From a virus, in the IMG/VR virus record IMGVR_UViG_3300025671_000705, positions 1-20,168 of that record: a DNA stretch of 20,168 bases, one strand, 5' to 3'. Numbering within the stretch: position 1 is the stretch's first letter; each line of letters begins with the position of its first letter. The position numbers were made by a program, and so were the translations under genes. A model generated the notes under the pieces. It searched no databases and was not told the origin of the DNA. It saw only the letters and a program-made list of their open reading frames with translations. This document shows positions 12,445 to 19,988 of the stretch, piece after piece.

Positions 12445-12678
12445 CTAGGTGGATTCCACTGTATCCATCCGTTTCCTTGCTTCCATATCGTCGATATAGT
12501 CTTCGATTTCAAGCTGGGTTTCTTTTTCTGAGACATCCTGCATCCTTTCCAAGCCTTCGATGAGTCTGCGCTGCAGAGCCTCTGAGATTAAACCGGCACG
12601 TGTGTCCTCGTCCATCTCGAAGGTGACGACTGCACCGCCGTCCTTGAGTTCAACGTACTCTATGACTTCAAGCCGCAT
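12445..12678 (-). CDS. small charged protein of unknown function
   Basis: This 77-aa protein has a short beta-like N-terminus (MRLEVIEYVELKDGGAVVTF) followed by charged helices (LISEALQRRLIEGLERM, then EIEDYIDDMEARKRM). Short proteins of the form 'V-x-ELxDGGAxVxFxMDEx(T)' are frequent beside phage replication genes, but I know of no assigned role. It overlaps the RNR stop by 11 bases (ATGCGGCTTGA) and lacks a clear ribosome site, so its translation is likely coupled to RNR. It might associate with RNR, but nothing in the sequence shows this. Confidence 0.6.
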   Translation of the reverse strand: MRLEVIEYVELKDGGAVVTFEMDEDTRAGLISEALQRRLIEGLERMQDVSEKETQLEIEDYIDDMEARKRMDTVEST

Positions 12679-14608
12679 TGAGGTCTACCACTTCACACAC
12701 GCCAGCCGTACATGCTAGTTCACGTCCACCTGATGTAGTGTCTTCCTTTTCAAACTCACGTAACTTCTCCCAATTAACACTCTTTGGCATCTGTGTCAAC
12801 AGTTCATTGTAAGTTTCTTCATCAATGTCCTGATAAGGTGCTTGCTTGTATGTGTGTTCACTGAATGGCAGGAAGCTGATGCCTGACACTTCATCAAAGT
12901 GATTGTAGACCCATGAACCTACATCCATCCACTCATGTTCCTTCACAGAGATGGTGACACTAGGCTTGTGTTCACACCAGTGACGCTGGTACATGAGCCA
13001 CAGTTCAAGCTGCTCAATGGCAGACATAGCTGTGCGTGTTACAGCACCAGCAGGTGACTTCATTGGGAAGCTGAACACTGTAGTGCTATCGGGCTTCATC
13101 ACATCCGGCTCTGCGGGAATGCCCTCAGAGACAAGGAACTGCGTGATGGGGTCTTTGTTATCCCCACGTACCGTACGCACGTAGTATGGGTTGTGACGGG
13201 CGTGAATGCCACTGGCACTGTCAACAAGCTGGCTGACTGTACCACTAGGCTTGACACAGGTAATGGCTGCTGATTGTGCAATACCAAGCTGTGCTGCCAT
13301 AGCTGCATTAGTCTCAACTGCTACATCTTTCAGTGCCTCAAGGGTAGCACCAATGTTCATGCCGAGATGTGCAGACTTACCTGCCATCAGTGCATTGTCC
13401 ATGATGCCAGTCAGTGACACACCAAGCAGACGTTCTTCCTCTGTATTGTTTCTCCATACCTTGCGAAGATATTTGAAGTCAGTCAGTGTAGATTGGAACG
13501 TGCCAAGAATTGTAGCCAAGCGAACCTTTTCTGTCAGCGTCTGTTGTGTGTCAGTAGAACGTACTACAACTTCAGACAAATTACAGAACTGATATGGACG
13601 CAAGATGATTTCACTACATGGATTGCATCCAAAGTCATGGTCAGATTCACGGCGACCATTCTTAGCTGCTTGATTCTGTGCTGACTGACGATTGAAGATT
13701 CCACGTTCACCAGACTTTGATTCATACAGTGCTAGCCATTCACGCATGAACGTACCCATCTGTGGCTTCTCTTTGTAGGCAACGCTGTTGTTAGCCAGCG
13801 CACGTTGCCCTTCATTCTCCCACCACTGTCCTGCCTTGGCATGGCGCATCTGGTCATCATTCAGATTGGACAGGCTGATGAGTGCGCTGCGTCGGACACC
13901 ACCTACGACGACAACCTCACCAATTTTACACATCAAGTCATGGCACTCAATTGGGTACAGGCGACGACCTGCCGCCTTCTTGAACATGTCTACAGTAAAC
14001 TGGAAAAGTTCCTCAAGAGGTGCGGGACCACTAGCCCTGCCACCAAATGTCTTAAGACGTGCGCCAGCAGGGCGAACCTCGCTGGTGTCCCATTGGGGTA
14101 CTTGTCCTGCATACAGCAGAGAGATGAGTTCACGCAATGACTTCGCCCAGCCAGGACGAGAGTCGCCAACCTTGATGACAGTATCTGTGTCATTCATGTC
14201 CTCATTCACAATGGGCAGCTTATCAGTATGGTGACGTTCTACTGAAAAGCCAACGCCTGTGCCACACATGAGAATATACATTGTCTCATCGAATGCACGA
14301 GGATTGTCTACAGGTACGTAGGAGCAATTGTAGCCGCCTACATGGCAACGATCCAGCGCAGGGCCAGCTGTCATCAATGCTCTCATGCTTGGCATGATGT
14401 CTTGATTAAGCACAGCCTGTTCCAGTTCACCCCTCAGTGAATCAGGAAGCTGATAATCATGCTTAGTGACCAGATGCTTAGTAATGTAATCAAAGTATCG
14501 TGCGACTGTTTCACTCCATGTCTCCCTTCGTTGTTCATCTTCCTTCCAACGTGCATAACGTGAAAGTGCAATAAAGTTTTGGTAGTCTGTTGGTAGGTAA
14601 TTGTTCAT
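12668..14608 (-). CDS. adenosylcobalamin-dependent (class II) ribonucleotide reductase, monomeric type
   Basis: This 646-aa enzyme converts ribonucleoside triphosphates to deoxy forms for phage DNA synthesis. Active-site landmarks match the Lactobacillus leichmannii RTPR pattern. C95 (GGYNCSY) and C342 (FCNLSE) are the likely redox pair. C331 and E333 in NPCSEI are the thiyl-radical cysteine and the acid. C633-x4-C638 near the C-terminus is the shuttling pair. The spacings C331-E333 (2), C331-C342 (11) and C633-C638 (5) equal those of RTPR (C408, E410, C419, C731, C736). PSGTVSQLVDSASGIHARH (454-472) is also typical. The length is somewhat shorter than the 739 residues of RTPR. No small subunit gene is adjacent, as expected for class II. 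The enzyme depends on cobalamin available in the host. A GGAG lies about ten bases upstream, inside the 52-aa gene. Confidence 0.95.
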   Translation of the reverse strand: MNNYLPTDYQNFIALSRYARWKEDEQRRETWSETVARYFDYITKHLVTKHDYQLPDSLRGELEQAVLNQDIMPSMRALMTAGPALDRCHVGGYNCSYVPVDNPRAFDETMYILMCGTGVGFSVERHHTDKLPIVNEDMNDTDTVIKVGDSRPGWAKSLRELISLLYAGQVPQWDTSEVRPAGARLKTFGGRASGPAPLEELFQFTVDMFKKAAGRRLYPIECHDLMCKIGEVVVVGGVRRSALISLSNLNDDQMRHAKAGQWWENEGQRALANNSVAYKEKPQMGTFMREWLALYESKSGERGIFNRQSAQNQAAKNGRRESDHDFGCNPCSEIILRPYQFCNLSEVVVRSTDTQQTLTEKVRLATILGTFQSTLTDFKYLRKVWRNNTEEERLLGVSLTGIMDNALMAGKSAHLGMNIGATLEALKDVAVETNAAMAAQLGIAQSAAITCVKPSGTVSQLVDSASGIHARHNPYYVRTVRGDNKDPITQFLVSEGIPAEPDVMKPDSTTVFSFPMKSPAGAVTRTAMSAIEQLELWLMYQRHWCEHKPSVTISVKEHEWMDVGSWVYNHFDEVSGISFLPFSEHTYKQAPYQDIDEETYNELLTQMPKSVNWEKLREFEKEDTTSGGRELACTAGVCEVVDLNAA

Positions 14609-15376: not shown

Positions 15377-15861
15377 TTTTTACTCCTTTTTACTTTAGTT
15401 CCTGCAAATTTAATAAACTTTGGATGCTTGTTTTTTCCCTTTTCTTTCAGCCAGTCTTCGGGAATGATCCTGTCATAGTACCTAAACCCATACTTGATAC
15501 ACCACTCACCGTAGGTTGACTTCGCCCCTTTGCGAAGCTTTCGTCTGCTGTTCTCAAAGACAAAACGAATATCCAAGTTAGGATGCTGACGCTTGATTGC
15601 TAAATGCTTGCGCCGATCTGCTGCCGTGAACATTCCCTTCGTCTCAATGATGATGCCATTGGCAAGCACGAAGTCAGGTGTATATGTCCTGTAAGCAAGG
15701 TCTTCCCATTCGATCTTAATGGACTCATAGTCAAACTTTATCTTAAGTCCTACAAGATACTCAGAAATCTTATGCTCAAGGCCACTACGAAATCCTAACT
15801 TACGTGCTGCCCTGAATCGTTTCGCATTATGCACTGTCGTATTCACTAGCCAGTTCAACAT
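15373..15861 (-). CDS. T7 endonuclease I-like Holliday junction resolvase
   Basis: With the ATG at 15861 this is 162 aa. It aligns by eye with T7 gp3: FRSGLE near the start, YTPDFVLANGIIIETKG in the centre, then RRKHLAIKRQHPNLDIRFVF, YGEWCIKYGF and IIPEDW. The catalytic set is E29, D63, E73 and K75. T7 uses E20, D55, E65 and K67, so the spacing is nearly identical. The enzyme cuts branched DNA and, in T7, helps degrade host DNA and resolve concatemers before packaging. TTG 15870, ATG 15861 and GTG 15834 are all possible starts, and none has a clear ribosome site. GTG would put the first Glu at residue 20, exactly as in T7. The ATG start overlaps the nuclease gene by 35 bases. Confidence 0.92.
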   Translation of the reverse strand: MLNWLVNTTVHNAKRFRAARKLGFRSGLEHKISEYLVGLKIKFDYESIKIEWEDLAYRTYTPDFVLANGIIIETKGMFTAADRRKHLAIKRQHPNLDIRFVFENSRRKLRKGAKSTYGEWCIKYGFRYYDRIIPEDWLKEKGKNKHPKFIKFAGTKVKRSKK

Positions 15862-16687
15862 ACGAAACAATCTTTGGTTCTTTTGCCTGTGACTTCACTG
15901 CTGGCAATTCCTTAAGGTCAGGCCAACATGCTTTGCGATAGTCACAGAACGAACACTCTTTGGCTAGGACTTTGTTACCAGTCGGCTTGCCTCTGAATGT
16001 TTCTTCTACAGGCTCGAAGCAACGCTTGAACTCATTGGAATCCACAGTTTCAATTGTGTCGCTAATCTTCTGCAATTCCTGTTCAGTATCTACGCCTGTA
16101 GCTGGAACATATTTGAAACTACCATTTGCTTTGTTGACAACCCACCAGCCACCAGGTTTTAGGCCAGTAGCTTTAGCGTAGCCGACAAGCTGTCCAACGT
16201 AACCGAAAGCATCGCTACTATGTAGTGTTTCAAATGATGCAAACTTGTTACGATAAGACCAGTCAGATGCTGACTTGACATCATCAACAGCACCATCAAT
16301 AGTAAGGTCATATGTTCCATTAATTGTATGCTCTCCAATATCCAGAGATACATTTTCTGAATCACCATACTCCACTCCTGCTTCCTTTAGTAGCCCTTTG
16401 AATACTGCTTCCACAATATCTCCAAGCATCATGTTCATGACAAATGTGGTTGGACGAGGCAGTGCTGTATCAGGCTTGTTCTTCTCGAACCATAGCTGGC
16501 AGGTGGGCCTACCAATGTTCGACATACGTAGCCTAAATTCTCGCTTGTCTGCCCCGCCAAACTGACGTGCAAGCGCACCCATGACATCCAAACCAATCTG
16601 TTTGATTGTCTCTTGGGACATGGTTGACTTGCCATTGGCAGCGTCGTCCATATACTTATGCAACGCCAGTTCAGCTGGGTGATTCAT
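15827..16687 (-). CDS. PD-(D/E)XK exonuclease, RecB/Cas4-like, probable iron-sulfur cluster
   Basis: This 286-aa nuclease has the core GTYDLTIDGAVDDVKSAS (124-141), giving D127 and D136-x-K138. QLVGY (166-170) is the QxxxY motif. One N-terminal cysteine (C63, RPTCQLWFE) plus three C-terminal ones (C245, C248, C254 in CSFCDYRKACW) match the four-cysteine cluster of Cas4 and AddB-type nucleases. The likely role is 5' to 3' exonuclease in phage recombination and host DNA breakdown, comparable in place to T7 gp6. It starts one base after the upstream stop, with only a weak GAGG, so it is probably coupled. No cas1/cas2 is nearby, so it is not part of a CRISPR locus. Confidence 0.85.
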   Translation of the reverse strand: MNHPAELALHKYMDDAANGKSTMSQETIKQIGLDVMGALARQFGGADKREFRLRMSNIGRPTCQLWFEKNKPDTALPRPTTFVMNMMLGDIVEAVFKGLLKEAGVEYGDSENVSLDIGEHTINGTYDLTIDGAVDDVKSASDWSYRNKFASFETLHSSDAFGYVGQLVGYAKATGLKPGGWWVVNKANGSFKYVPATGVDTEQELQKISDTIETVDSNEFKRCFEPVEETFRGKPTGNKVLAKECSFCDYRKACWPDLKELPAVKSQAKEPKIVSYVELASEYDSA

Positions 16688-16688
16688 A

Positions 16689-17561
16689 TCATTCTACCTC
16701 TTCAACATCAATGTCAACAAAGGATTCAGCAAGTTCTTTCTCTTCTTGAGTAGCTTTCTGAACATGCTTCTCTTCCCAATCAGACAGTACCCTACGATTA
16801 TGGTTCTCGACTACAGCTTGGAAGTCCCTGAGTAGCTGTTGATCTGCTTCCGTAATCTCGTGGATTGTGTCAAGGTCTGCTTCACAGACTGGCACATAGT
16901 ATGGGCCATTCGGGCCTTTACGTTCAGCCGTAGACACAATGATGTCGTGCATGATGGGAAGACGACGATGCTGCGCAAACTTGTTTGACACATCACCAAA
17001 GTTTTTGTAGCCTTCCTTTACTGCCACGTCAAACACAAAGGGTGTGTCCACCAGTTCAGCAGGATTGCCTTCTTCATCCTTCGCATCTACAAAGGTAACA
17101 GTCCCGTACATAGAACGTGTACGCTTGATAGAACGAATGAGAGTCTGCATGTCGTCAGACAAAGCATCGAAGTCCTTGATGTAACCAGAAGGTTTACCAC
17201 AGTTGAAGTTGCCTTGGTTGTCCTTGAGGTCAATGTCCAGATTCTCTGCCATGACTGTCTTCACATAGTTCTTGTTGACCGGATCATACTTCTGGTACAG
17301 AAACCTCTGCATGAACAGGCGCATCCTGATCTTCTCAGCGTACACAGTCTTGCCTTCGATGTTTGCCAAGAAGAATGAACCAGCCGACACGATATCGACA
17401 TTCATTGTCTTGCCATTAATCTCTGCCTTACCCTTGATTGGCTGACTGTGAATCTTGATACGGGCAAGACTACTCTTACTCTCACCTGTATCAGCAGCCA
17501 TGCCTAGCATCTGTGCCATAGCTGCATAGTTGTTGGAATCAATTACTGCAAGTTCACTCAT
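16689..17561 (-). CDS. candidate single-stranded DNA-binding protein
   Basis: I do not recognise a named family in this 290-aa protein. The body (about 35-235) is beta-rich with many basic and aromatic residues (ARIKIHSQPIKGKAEING, KIRMRLFMQRFLYQKYD). One Cys lies mid-protein and one near 220. The C-terminus becomes strongly acidic and ends FVDIDVEEVE, like the acidic tails through which SSB and T7 gp2.5 contact polymerase and helicase. It sits directly between polymerase and exonuclease, where podoviruses often encode their ssDNA-binding protein. A strong ribosome site (AAAGGAG, nine-base spacing) and a promoter just upstream suggest high expression, again fitting SSB. The function remains inference. 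Confidence 0.5.
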   Translation of the reverse strand: MSELAVIDSNNYAAMAQMLGMAADTGESKSSLARIKIHSQPIKGKAEINGKTMNVDIVSAGSFFLANIEGKTVYAEKIRMRLFMQRFLYQKYDPVNKNYVKTVMAENLDIDLKDNQGNFNCGKPSGYIKDFDALSDDMQTLIRSIKRTRSMYGTVTFVDAKDEEGNPAELVDTPFVFDVAVKEGYKNFGDVSNKFAQHRRLPIMHDIIVSTAERKGPNGPYYVPVCEADLDTIHEITEADQQLLRDFQAVVENHNRRVLSDWEEKHVQKATQEEKELAESFVDIDVEEVE

Positions 17562-17596: not shown

Positions 17597-17625
17597 GTTT
17601 TATCACACTACGTCCTTTGTGTCAA
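17597..17625 (-). promoter_or_regulatory. putative sigma70-type promoter upstream of the SSB-candidate gene
   Basis: On the minus strand, TTGACA (complement of 17620-17625) is followed after exactly 17 bases by TAAAAC (complement of 17597-17602). TG stands one base before it, forming an extended -10. The -35 is perfect and the -10 has four of six consensus bases. It overlaps the last codons of the polymerase gene and lies about 35 bases before the next ATG. The expected start of transcription is near 17590. An inverted repeat CGTAGT/ACTACG spans the -10 and could bind a regulator. Confidence 0.5.
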
Positions 17626-19645
17626 GCCAATTTTCACCTATTTTGGCTTCAAGTTCGAGTGGTACATTAAAGACTATGCCCCATCTCATTGTAATTAAAC
17701 CAGGAAGATCGGCATTAGTTTTTTGTATAATGTCAATCACCTGACGTTCTTCATCTGGGTGTACGTCAATGACGATACTGTCATGCACAGTGTTGACTAC
17801 ACAAGACTGCATACCTACCAGCAGCTTCTCAATGTGAAGCAGGGCAATAGGCACAATGTCTGCCGTAGCAAATGACTGCACAGGATAGTTCTTGATCTGC
17901 GTAAAGTTAGTGACCTTGCCACTCTCAAGACGATGCACACCCTCAAACTTAAACTGCCGACCAGAGGGTGTAGTAATCATCTCTGTAGTTAAAGCCTCTT
18001 TAGCCAGTCGGGTATGCCAATCTGCGATGCCTTGGTATTTTTCCGTGAAGTGTGTGTAGTATTCTGCTTCCGCTGGCGTTCTGCCAAAGCCCGTTGCTCC
18101 ATATAACGGCGCGAATGTATGCGCCTTCGCAGTCTGTCTATCCGTAGGCTGACCAGCATCGGTAATAACTTTAGCGGTGTATGCGTGAACATCAAACCCA
18201 GTAGATACTTCTTCAATTGCAACTCCATCTTGTGACAGGAATGCAGCCGCACGAAACTCAAGCTGTGCAAAGTCTGCTTCCAATACTTTACCATTAGGCC
18301 AGCGAGATACAAACACCTTCTTGACAGGGAATGTACCACCACGTGGCATGTTCTGCATGTTGGGGTCTGCACCAGACAGGCGTCCAGTGGCAGTCCTATG
18401 TTGTAATAGGCGCACATGAAGCTTACCATCCTGCTTTGTATGTACGCGAATGCCATCAACAAATGATGACAGATATGTTTCGACAGCAGACAAACGACGA
18501 ATCTCACGCAGGAATGTAACTGCATCATCCATACCCTTGCTGTTTGCTGCCTTCTCTAACACCTCAAGATTATTCTTGCTTGTGCTAAAGCCACTAGCAC
18601 TAGCCCACTTAGCATTGGGTGGCGTAAACTTTAGACCAGCCACTTCCTTAGTTGGCTTGAATAGAAAGCCACCAGCTGCACAGGTAATGCACTTGTTTGG
18701 CTTGGAAAATGGTGTGCCATCCTTCTTCACCTTACGAATGTAACCTGTGCCTTTACAGTAACTGCACTGCACTGCCTCTGTCTTATATAGATACTGTGTC
18801 TGACTACGCACCAAGTCCTTGAAGGGTGTGTCACGCATGTAAGGGTCAATGGTATTAGACCACAGCGTCTTGTCTTTCACCTTACGGCTGTAGATTACCC
18901 ACGACAGTTGCTCTGGGCTGTTGAGATTAATAGGTGTGTCACCCATAAGTTCACGAACCTGAGACTGCAAGCTGTCCAGAAGTTCCTGCTTTTCTTGCTC
19001 AAATTCCTGGCGCACCTCATCCAGCTTTGACAAGTCTACTGCAAAGCCACGCTGATAGATATGTGCCAGACATGTAGCTACCTGATTGGTCAGGTCAACT
19101 GTACCACGTAAGCCCGAATCATCTTGGCTGTTAAGCCGATACACCAGCTTGTCTGCCAGTTGCTGTGTAGCATGTAGATCAGCAGACAAATATTCTGAGA
19201 GTTCAGAATGAGGAATTTCACGAACACTCATACCCTTCTTGAAGTATTCTTTCAGCGTATCCTGCTTCTTTGTATCCAGATCGTATCGTTCAGCACATGC
19301 CTCAAGAGACAGGGGTTCCTTGACACCACGCTGTAGCACATACTCTGCCAGCATTGTATCAAAGACTGGCCCATCATACTTGAAGCCAGACTCCCACAGC
19401 CACAGCAAATCATAGGCAGCGTTGTGGCAGATCAGGACAGTAGCTTCATCCAGCCATTCCTGCACACCTTCATGACCCATTGGCGTGGCGTGTTCGTCTG
19501 CATGGTCAAACGTAACCAGCCATTCTTCACCTCTGTCATTTAGCATACCAACCATCGTCAGGCTGTTACTAGCCTCGAATGGATCAAGGTGCATCTTGCC
19601 GTCACGCTGTGTGACAGTATTCTCTACGTCAAGTGTCAGCTTCAT
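17603..19645 (-). CDS. polA: family A DNA polymerase with DnaJ-type zinc module
   Basis: This 680-aa replicative polymerase has an N-terminal 3'-5' exonuclease: D6-x-E8 (LDVENT), HNAAYD (74-79) and YLSAD (152-156). A zinc module follows: CSYCKGTG (294-301) and CITCAAGG (319-326), one half of a DnaJ cysteine-rich domain. The polymerase domain has RTATGRLS (417-424), motif A LEADFAQLE (455-463, D458), motif B R503-x3-K507-x3-F511-x3-YG, and motif C VHDS (620-623). There is no 5' nuclease domain. Motif B has Phe, as in E. coli Pol I F762, where T7 has Tyr. The zinc insertion between exonuclease and polymerase is the layout reported for phage HMO-2011. GGAG six bases upstream fixes the start, which overlaps the previous gene by 17 bases. 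Confidence 0.96.
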   Translation of the reverse strand: MKLTLDVENTVTQRDGKMHLDPFEASNSLTMVGMLNDRGEEWLVTFDHADEHATPMGHEGVQEWLDEATVLICHNAAYDLLWLWESGFKYDGPVFDTMLAEYVLQRGVKEPLSLEACAERYDLDTKKQDTLKEYFKKGMSVREIPHSELSEYLSADLHATQQLADKLVYRLNSQDDSGLRGTVDLTNQVATCLAHIYQRGFAVDLSKLDEVRQEFEQEKQELLDSLQSQVRELMGDTPINLNSPEQLSWVIYSRKVKDKTLWSNTIDPYMRDTPFKDLVRSQTQYLYKTEAVQCSYCKGTGYIRKVKKDGTPFSKPNKCITCAAGGFLFKPTKEVAGLKFTPPNAKWASASGFSTSKNNLEVLEKAANSKGMDDAVTFLREIRRLSAVETYLSSFVDGIRVHTKQDGKLHVRLLQHRTATGRLSGADPNMQNMPRGGTFPVKKVFVSRWPNGKVLEADFAQLEFRAAAFLSQDGVAIEEVSTGFDVHAYTAKVITDAGQPTDRQTAKAHTFAPLYGATGFGRTPAEAEYYTHFTEKYQGIADWHTRLAKEALTTEMITTPSGRQFKFEGVHRLESGKVTNFTQIKNYPVQSFATADIVPIALLHIEKLLVGMQSCVVNTVHDSIVIDVHPDEERQVIDIIQKTNADLPGLITMRWGIVFNVPLELEAKIGENWLDTKDVV

Positions 19646-19988
19646 ATTTATCTCCTCTTATGTAGTTGTTCACAAAATGCTCGATATCTGCTTTATGCCT
19701 ATACCAGACATTTTTGTGTAGTAGTCGCCAGTTATTTTCAAGAAGCGACACAACAAATTTTTTGTTCACAAGCACTAGACCAAAGTTCTTCTGGCCGTAA
19801 GTCTCAACCTCTAAGCCTAGTTCTAAAAGTTTTCTGAGTTTCCTCAGTCGTCTAACATTCCTGTCAGCACTATTACTGTAACGATCCTTGTGCCAACACG
19901 ACTTCTGCAGTTCGAGAGACTGCTGTTTATAATACTCAATGTCTTCTTCTAACTCGTGCAGAGTTTCTTTTGTATACATTAGGGTCAT
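19629..19988 (-). CDS. unknown protein between helicase and polymerase
   Basis: I do not recognise this 119-aa protein. The N-terminal half is a charged helical, coiled-coil-like region (LHELEEDIEYYKQQSLELQK), then a basic patch (DRNVRRLRKLRKLLELGLEV). The second half is mixed and rich in Asn, Tyr and Trp (KNFGLVLVNKKFVVSLLENN). It overlaps the helicase stop as ATGA and the polymerase start by 17 bases, carrying the polymerase ribosome site in its last codons. Its place suggests a replisome accessory role, which is inference. ATG 19979 is an alternative start. Confidence 0.6.
   Translation of the reverse strand: MTLMYTKETLHELEEDIEYYKQQSLELQKSCWHKDRYSNSADRNVRRLRKLRKLLELGLEVETYGQKNFGLVLVNKKFVVSLLENNWRLLHKNVWYRHKADIEHFVNNYIRGDKYEADT

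Follow-up and report, generated by a model that had tools for sequence, protein, structure and literature searches.

Polymerases of HMO-2011-type phages have been described as carrying a "partial DnaJ central domain" (PMC9038755; PMC6918029), and later papers, in their available parts, use this PF00684 module to define the group (PMC9038755; PMC6918029; PMC8528129). The GenBank record of HMO-2011 itself (GU557055) already annotates PF00684 in the polymerase gene. Given this annotation and the group-defining papers, the module is therefore already known, as an earlier reading made from the DNA letters (the sequence-only reading) had stated. In the accessible portions of the published accounts, the module is characterised by two CxxCxGxG motifs and placed between the exonuclease and polymerase domains, and a position at the tip of the thumb is not mentioned there. 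The module has long been used as a hallmark of this dominant marine phage group; in the accessible parts of the published work, its function is addressed only by analogy with the use of DnaJ by phage lambda. No biochemistry, experimental structure or reported function of the module was found in the literature, which agrees with the earlier statement that its job is not established.

The window analysed here, 20,168 bases long, is a virus record from IMG/VR, and its features are located in Table 1. A Pfam scan of its polymerase matched PF00476 (E = 3e-52) and PF01612 (E = 1.5e-7), identifying a family A polymerase with an exonuclease domain. The closest named relative is that of Puniceispirillum phage HMO-2011, with 75% identity over the full length, and in a tree computed with the insert omitted the window polymerase clusters with HMO-2011 and its relatives (starred sets, 6 and 12 rows). 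The AlphaFold2 model of the whole polymerase has a mean pLDDT of 89.5. Full-length fold searches gave ordinary family A polymerase chains among the matches listed, and these are not informative on the insert; T7 gp5 is not among the matches listed, and its absence there carries no weight in either direction. The palm motif of this polymerase is HDS, not the usual HDE, and it is invariant in a 61-member alignment.

Between the end of the helicase and the polymerase lies a 119-aa ORF with no PHROG match, unlike HMO-2011, where the helicase overlaps the polymerase directly. A Cas4-domain exonuclease (phrog_1990, E = 1.8e-36) occupies the place of an HMO-2011 gene annotated as hypothetical, and a ribonucleotide reductase (phrog_367, E = 4e-199) is adenosylcobalamin-dependent according to the HMO-2011 annotation.

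Table 1. Location of the polymerase, its insert and neighbouring features in the window.
Feature	Positions	Strand	Residues or length	Sequence, basis or remark
Family A DNA polymerase, HMO-2011 type	17603-19645	(-)	680 aa	ORF
3'-5' exonuclease domain of the polymerase			~aa 1-172	
Thumb of the polymerase			~aa 173-400	includes the insert
Palm and fingers of the polymerase			to aa 680	
Helix H1, thumb anchor just ahead of the insert	18881-18928	(-)	aa 240-255	NLNSPEQLSWVIYSRK; alignment with bacterial PolAs
Thumb-tip insert, as placed by alignment	18638-18880	(-)	~aa 256-336, ~80 aa	phmmer break, MAFFT, sister-clade comparison
Predicted strand entering the zinc module	18767-18787	(-)	aa 287-293	AlphaFold2 secondary structure
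First putative zinc knuckle	18743-18766	(-)	aa 294-301	CSYCKGTG, C294/C297; sequence
Basic hairpin between the knuckles	18692-18742	(-)		YIRKVKKDGTPFSKPNK; K305, K307, K308 and G310 nearly invariant
Second putative zinc knuckle	18668-18691	(-)	aa 319-326	CITCAAGG, C319/C322/G326; sequence
Predicted strand leaving the zinc module	18641-18667	(-)	aa 327-335	AlphaFold2 secondary structure
Thumb anchor past the insert, start of the next thumb helix	18578-18592	(-)	aa 352-356	GFSTS; alignment
Palm motif HDS	17777-17785	(-)	aa 621-623	
Protein directly downstream of the polymerase, candidate partner	16689-17561	(-)	290 aa	acidic C-terminal tail
ORF between helicase end and polymerase	19629-19988	(-)	119 aa	
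Cas4-domain exonuclease	15827-16687	(-)		
Ribonucleotide reductase	12668-14608	(-)		

The four cysteines of the module, C294, C297, C319 and C322, are present exactly where the sequence-only reading had located them (18668-18766), and a CxxC-x10-40-CxxC arrangement arose in none of 5000 shuffles of the polymerase protein. PF00684, the DnaJ central domain, matches aa 289-329 over profile positions 13-54 out of 65, with an E-value of 0.0074 for the whole protein and 2.6e-4 for the excised fragment, both matches scoring under the curated cut-off. Across 61 diverse inserts, 57 match the same profile at E ≤ 0.01, the best at 6.5e-8. A search of PDB sequences with the single module returned nothing useful, and a profile of the 61 inserts was required; its best match was the cysteine-rich domain of E. 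coli DnaJ (1EXK, E = 0.0015), through motifs 2 and 3. These two motifs make up zinc site II, and the proposal that the module is one zinc-binding half of a DnaJ cysteine-rich domain is thus borne out. The complete PF00684 arrangement of four CxxCxGxG motifs and two zinc ions is not found in the polymerase, which has motifs 2 and 3 only. A partial DnaJ domain with two CxxC motifs, as described in the available part of PMC9038755, is present at aa 294-326 with a deviating second motif. The latter has to be written CxxCxxxG instead of CxxCxGxG: G326 alone is invariant there, and the canonical form's first glycine is not conserved. Using tblastn with the insert against 50,697 phage records, only 12 records, all of HMO-2011 type, were matched at E ≤ 4e-17, while the other 11 matches had E-values of at least 1.

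AlphaFold2 modelled the insert with good confidence, with a pLDDT of 87.0 when it was modelled alone and ten-residue means of 84-94 across approximately aa 260-350 in the whole-polymerase model. The predicted structure has two short helices, followed by two strands that frame the zinc knuckles and the hairpin. Leading rows of the Foldseek and VIA searches with this model were DnaJA2, UvrA, anti-TRAP, BSD2 and DnaJ, and chains of DnaJ, UvrA, anti-TRAP or BSD2 made up 20 of the 22 VIA rows. The VIA Z-scores were 4.0 for DnaJA2, 3.7 for UvrA, 3.6 for anti-TRAP and 3.4 for BSD2; such scores are low in absolute terms (Foldseek E ~0.2, Z ~4), as is usual for a module of 35-40 residues. Sequence profiles agree with these matches, and the modelled insert appears to share the single-site DnaJ-type zinc fold. 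This likeness bears on the other refuting condition set by the sequence-only reading, a structure with the four cysteines too far apart for one metal ion. Among predicted viral proteins (BFVD), the best matches of the insert model were for the most part short phage proteins (60-80 aa) that are uncharacterised; some carry a DnaJ-like or heat shock protein annotation. By these matches, many stand-alone phage proteins of this size share the DnaJ-type zinc fold, and they are a plausible source of the module.

A DnaJ-like fold raises the prospect that the site draws DnaK or a DnaJ partner of the host to the polymerase, as in lambda replication. DnaJ zinc site II is linked to cooperation with DnaK, and this is the half present in the polymerase. 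The authors of PMC9038755 also point, in the accessible part of that paper, to lambda's use of DnaJ. Set against these hints, a Pfam scan at E ≤ 10 detected no J domain in the polymerase, just one of the two zinc sites is there, and the conserved lysine hairpin, with its charge pattern foreign to DnaJ, has no counterpart in that protein. The same zinc fold is moreover found in non-chaperones, including UvrA, anti-TRAP, phage lambda Q and many small phage proteins. Recruitment of a host chaperone, which the sequence-only reading had offered as one possible job, found no positive evidence in the analysis and is scarcely credible.

The location of the insert within the polymerase was examined by alignment. 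With phmmer against the Klenow fragment, polymerase aa 66-255 and 363-673 align, with a gap between them that is flanked by Klenow chain residues 271 (Pol I 594) before and 291 (614) after, the Pol I numbering assuming that the Klenow chain begins at residue 324. A MAFFT alignment with bacterial PolAs and phage StenR_269 places the extra ~80 aa after helix H1, NLNSPEQLSWVIYS, and ahead of the G-[YF]-S-T loop. Neither bacterial Pol I nor any of the sister phage polymerases examined has this segment. In Taq polymerase, N483 contacts the template strand, while E507 and S515 contact the primer strand (PMC6345897); by the residue mapping made here, N483 corresponds to the H1 element and E507/S515 to the following loop. 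By these alignments the insert is located in the thumb tip. The sequence-only reading had put the module roughly between the exonuclease and the thumb; in the phmmer and MAFFT results it instead interrupts the thumb itself, after helix H1 and ahead of the loop that contacts the primer. On a gammaproteobacterial MAG contig (L262), a PolA has another insert, one that lacks cysteines, at about this place in the thumb, and the thumb tip may be open to independent insertions.

Relatives for the conservation analysis were gathered by peptide patterns lying outside the zinc loops; the retention of the cysteines is therefore not a circular result. The pattern C-x2-C ... C-x2-C-x3-G is kept in all 332 polymerases of the HMO-2011 group, which come from public contigs, represent 230 distinct module sequences and are not all independent. 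Cysteine-less members were sought among the 332 and none was found, so the absence of these cysteines from close homologs, which would have spoken against a zinc site, is not the case. All 16 combinations of TGT and TGC are seen at the four cysteine codons in 246 relatives, and the dN/dS of the module is ~0.13. Within the main length class, which comprises 177 distinct modules, C294, C297 and G299 are invariant. Another residue replaces the second glycine of the first motif (CxxCxGxK etc.) at 11 loci retrieved with a CRP-2-like polymerase, L255, as query; these loci keep the cysteines. None of 80 loci of the sister phage polymerase clade has the four insert cysteines. In the insert-free tree, one change of state suffices to explain the insert, its basal branch being weakly supported, and the distribution is compatible with a single gain.

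Four invariant CxxC cysteines would also suit a redox switch, in which the pairs would lose their zinc when oxidised and would adjust the polymerase to redox conditions in the infected cell. Some HMO-2011-type phages encode a glutaredoxin, according to the available part of PMC9038755. The glycines and lysines, being invariant, fit a binding surface better than a thiol switch, and the redox reading is very unlikely.

In every one of the 332 relatives, the spacer between the CxxC pairs has a net charge of +4 or higher, with a mean of +6.6; the mean charge of the exonuclease domain is -12.8, and DnaJ site II and the lambda Q module each reach approximately +2 over the whole module. Position 305 is K or R in 176 of the 177 main-class modules and position 307 in all, K308 is kept in 175 and G310 in every one. 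The conservation of K305, K307 and K308 comes close to that of the cysteines. A second, CRP-738-like length class has a spacer longer by 12-13 aa. Compared with the accessible published accounts, the thumb-tip position, the identity as a half-domain, the lysine signature and the conservation assessed independently of the cysteines are new here.

Given the exact site and the charge of the hairpin, a grip on DNA or on a partner protein that is built into the polymerase is favoured over a chaperone function. The preferred explanation, to which about an even chance is given, is a basic hairpin, stapled by zinc, through which the polymerase would hold the product duplex more firmly, as a self-contained analogue of the thioredoxin-binding insert of T7. 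In the mechanism that we infer, a DnaJ-type zinc finger equivalent to site II would have been grafted, apparently once, into the thumb tip of an HMO-2011-type ancestor. The four cysteines would hold one zinc ion, which would staple the two-stranded stalk and the lysine-rich hairpin into a rigid protrusion beside the duplex-gripping elements of the thumb. Behind the active site, the hairpin would most likely touch the duplex at its phosphate backbone, and this contact would slow dissociation and raise processivity. One polypeptide could in this way achieve what T7 does with a thumb insert plus host thioredoxin. That the module acts at the thumb tip as a basic clamp, zinc-stapled and self-contained, and gives T7-like processivity with no host processivity factor, is put forward tentatively, at somewhat under even chance. 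Basic residues of the T7 thumb insert touch the DNA backbone in simulation (PMC5984650), and plant organellar PolAs have lysine-rich thumb insertions modelled as contacting duplex DNA (PMC7699545). Against a grip on DNA, a basic patch would suit the binding of acidic protein tails equally well, and the dN/dS of the module, at ~0.13, is somewhat above the 0.077 of palm and fingers. The equivalent zinc finger of UvrA is also thought to regulate, not to bind DNA directly.

Zinc modules often act purely as structural staples, and this general role, together with good conservation of aa 336-352, would fit a module in which zinc merely steadies the thumb extension, contacts being made by the helices of aa 256-290 or by the conserved AGLKFxPP segment and the lysines being minor. 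Such a purely structural role is unlikely here: the hairpin lysines approach the conservation of the cysteines, none of the 332 relatives lacks a basic spacer, and the helical part, aa 256-290, is the least conserved stretch of the insert.

The acidic tails mentioned above lead to the main rival of the grip on DNA, possible though doubtful, in which the basic zinc hairpin binds the acidic C-terminal tail of a phage replisome protein and tethers it as in T7. The most likely partner would be the product of the next downstream gene, which at 182 of 192 loci ends in 20 residues with a net charge of -4 or lower. In T7, gp2.5 and gp4 attach through their acidic tails to basic patches in the thioredoxin-binding domain or close to it (PMC7699545; PMC12593628), and the replication modules of HMO-2011-type phages are swapped as units (PMC8528129). 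The window copy of the downstream protein gave no significant Pfam, PHROG or PDB match, and the lack of similarity to SSB detectable in profile searches, where nothing was significant, weighs against docking, as do the C-termini of the HMO-2011 and HTVC033P helicases, which are not acidic tails. By its position and its tail, the downstream protein is a candidate for an SSB-like replisome partner. The grip on DNA and the docking of a partner are not exclusive and can coexist. A role as primase stand-in, with the module replacing a missing primase zinc ribbon, was also considered and is unlikely, because the HMO-2011 primase carries its own Cys4 ribbon (CPSC...CYKVSC).

With a thumb-tip position, site II alone and nearly fixed lysines, the function of the module becomes directly testable. 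If the proposed grip is true, it would represent a new route to processivity in a dominant marine phage group, and, if confirmed, a small processivity element that might find use in polymerase engineering.

Compared with known systems, the polymerases of HMO-2011 (GU557055), CRP-1/2/3 and HTVC033P have the same gene, domain order and four cysteines as the window; nothing essential differs, and the window is another member of the group. Zinc site II of E. coli DnaJ (1EXK) shares the layout CxxCxGxG ... G-[FP]-F ... CxxC..xG, but the polymerase has neither site I (motifs 1 and 4) nor the J and substrate-binding domains, and its hairpin, which is strongly basic, exceeds that of DnaJ by 3 aa in the main class. 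The zinc modules of UvrA, anti-TRAP, BSD2 and phage lambda Q have the same small fold by structure or sequence, yet they belong to different host proteins with different partners, none of them a polymerase. Insertion 1 of the plant organellar PolA AtPOLI is likewise a lysine-rich thumb insertion, modelled as touching duplex DNA (PMC7699545). It differs in that no zinc module is reported for it and in its role in translesion synthesis and end joining, the likeness being drawn from its description. The thioredoxin-binding domain of T7 gp5 is again a thumb insert of approximately 75-80 aa, rich in basic residues, in a phage family A polymerase, but it has no zinc site and depends on host thioredoxin. 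It probably occupies a neighbouring thumb loop and would precede the NLNS/H1 element, whereas the HMO-2011-type insert follows that element, at Klenow 594-614. The comparison with the T7 thumb insert made in the sequence-only reading is reasonable, although the two probably do not occupy the same place. Lying, as it seems, at neighbouring loops of the same thumb, the two inserts are probably analogous in position and not homologous.
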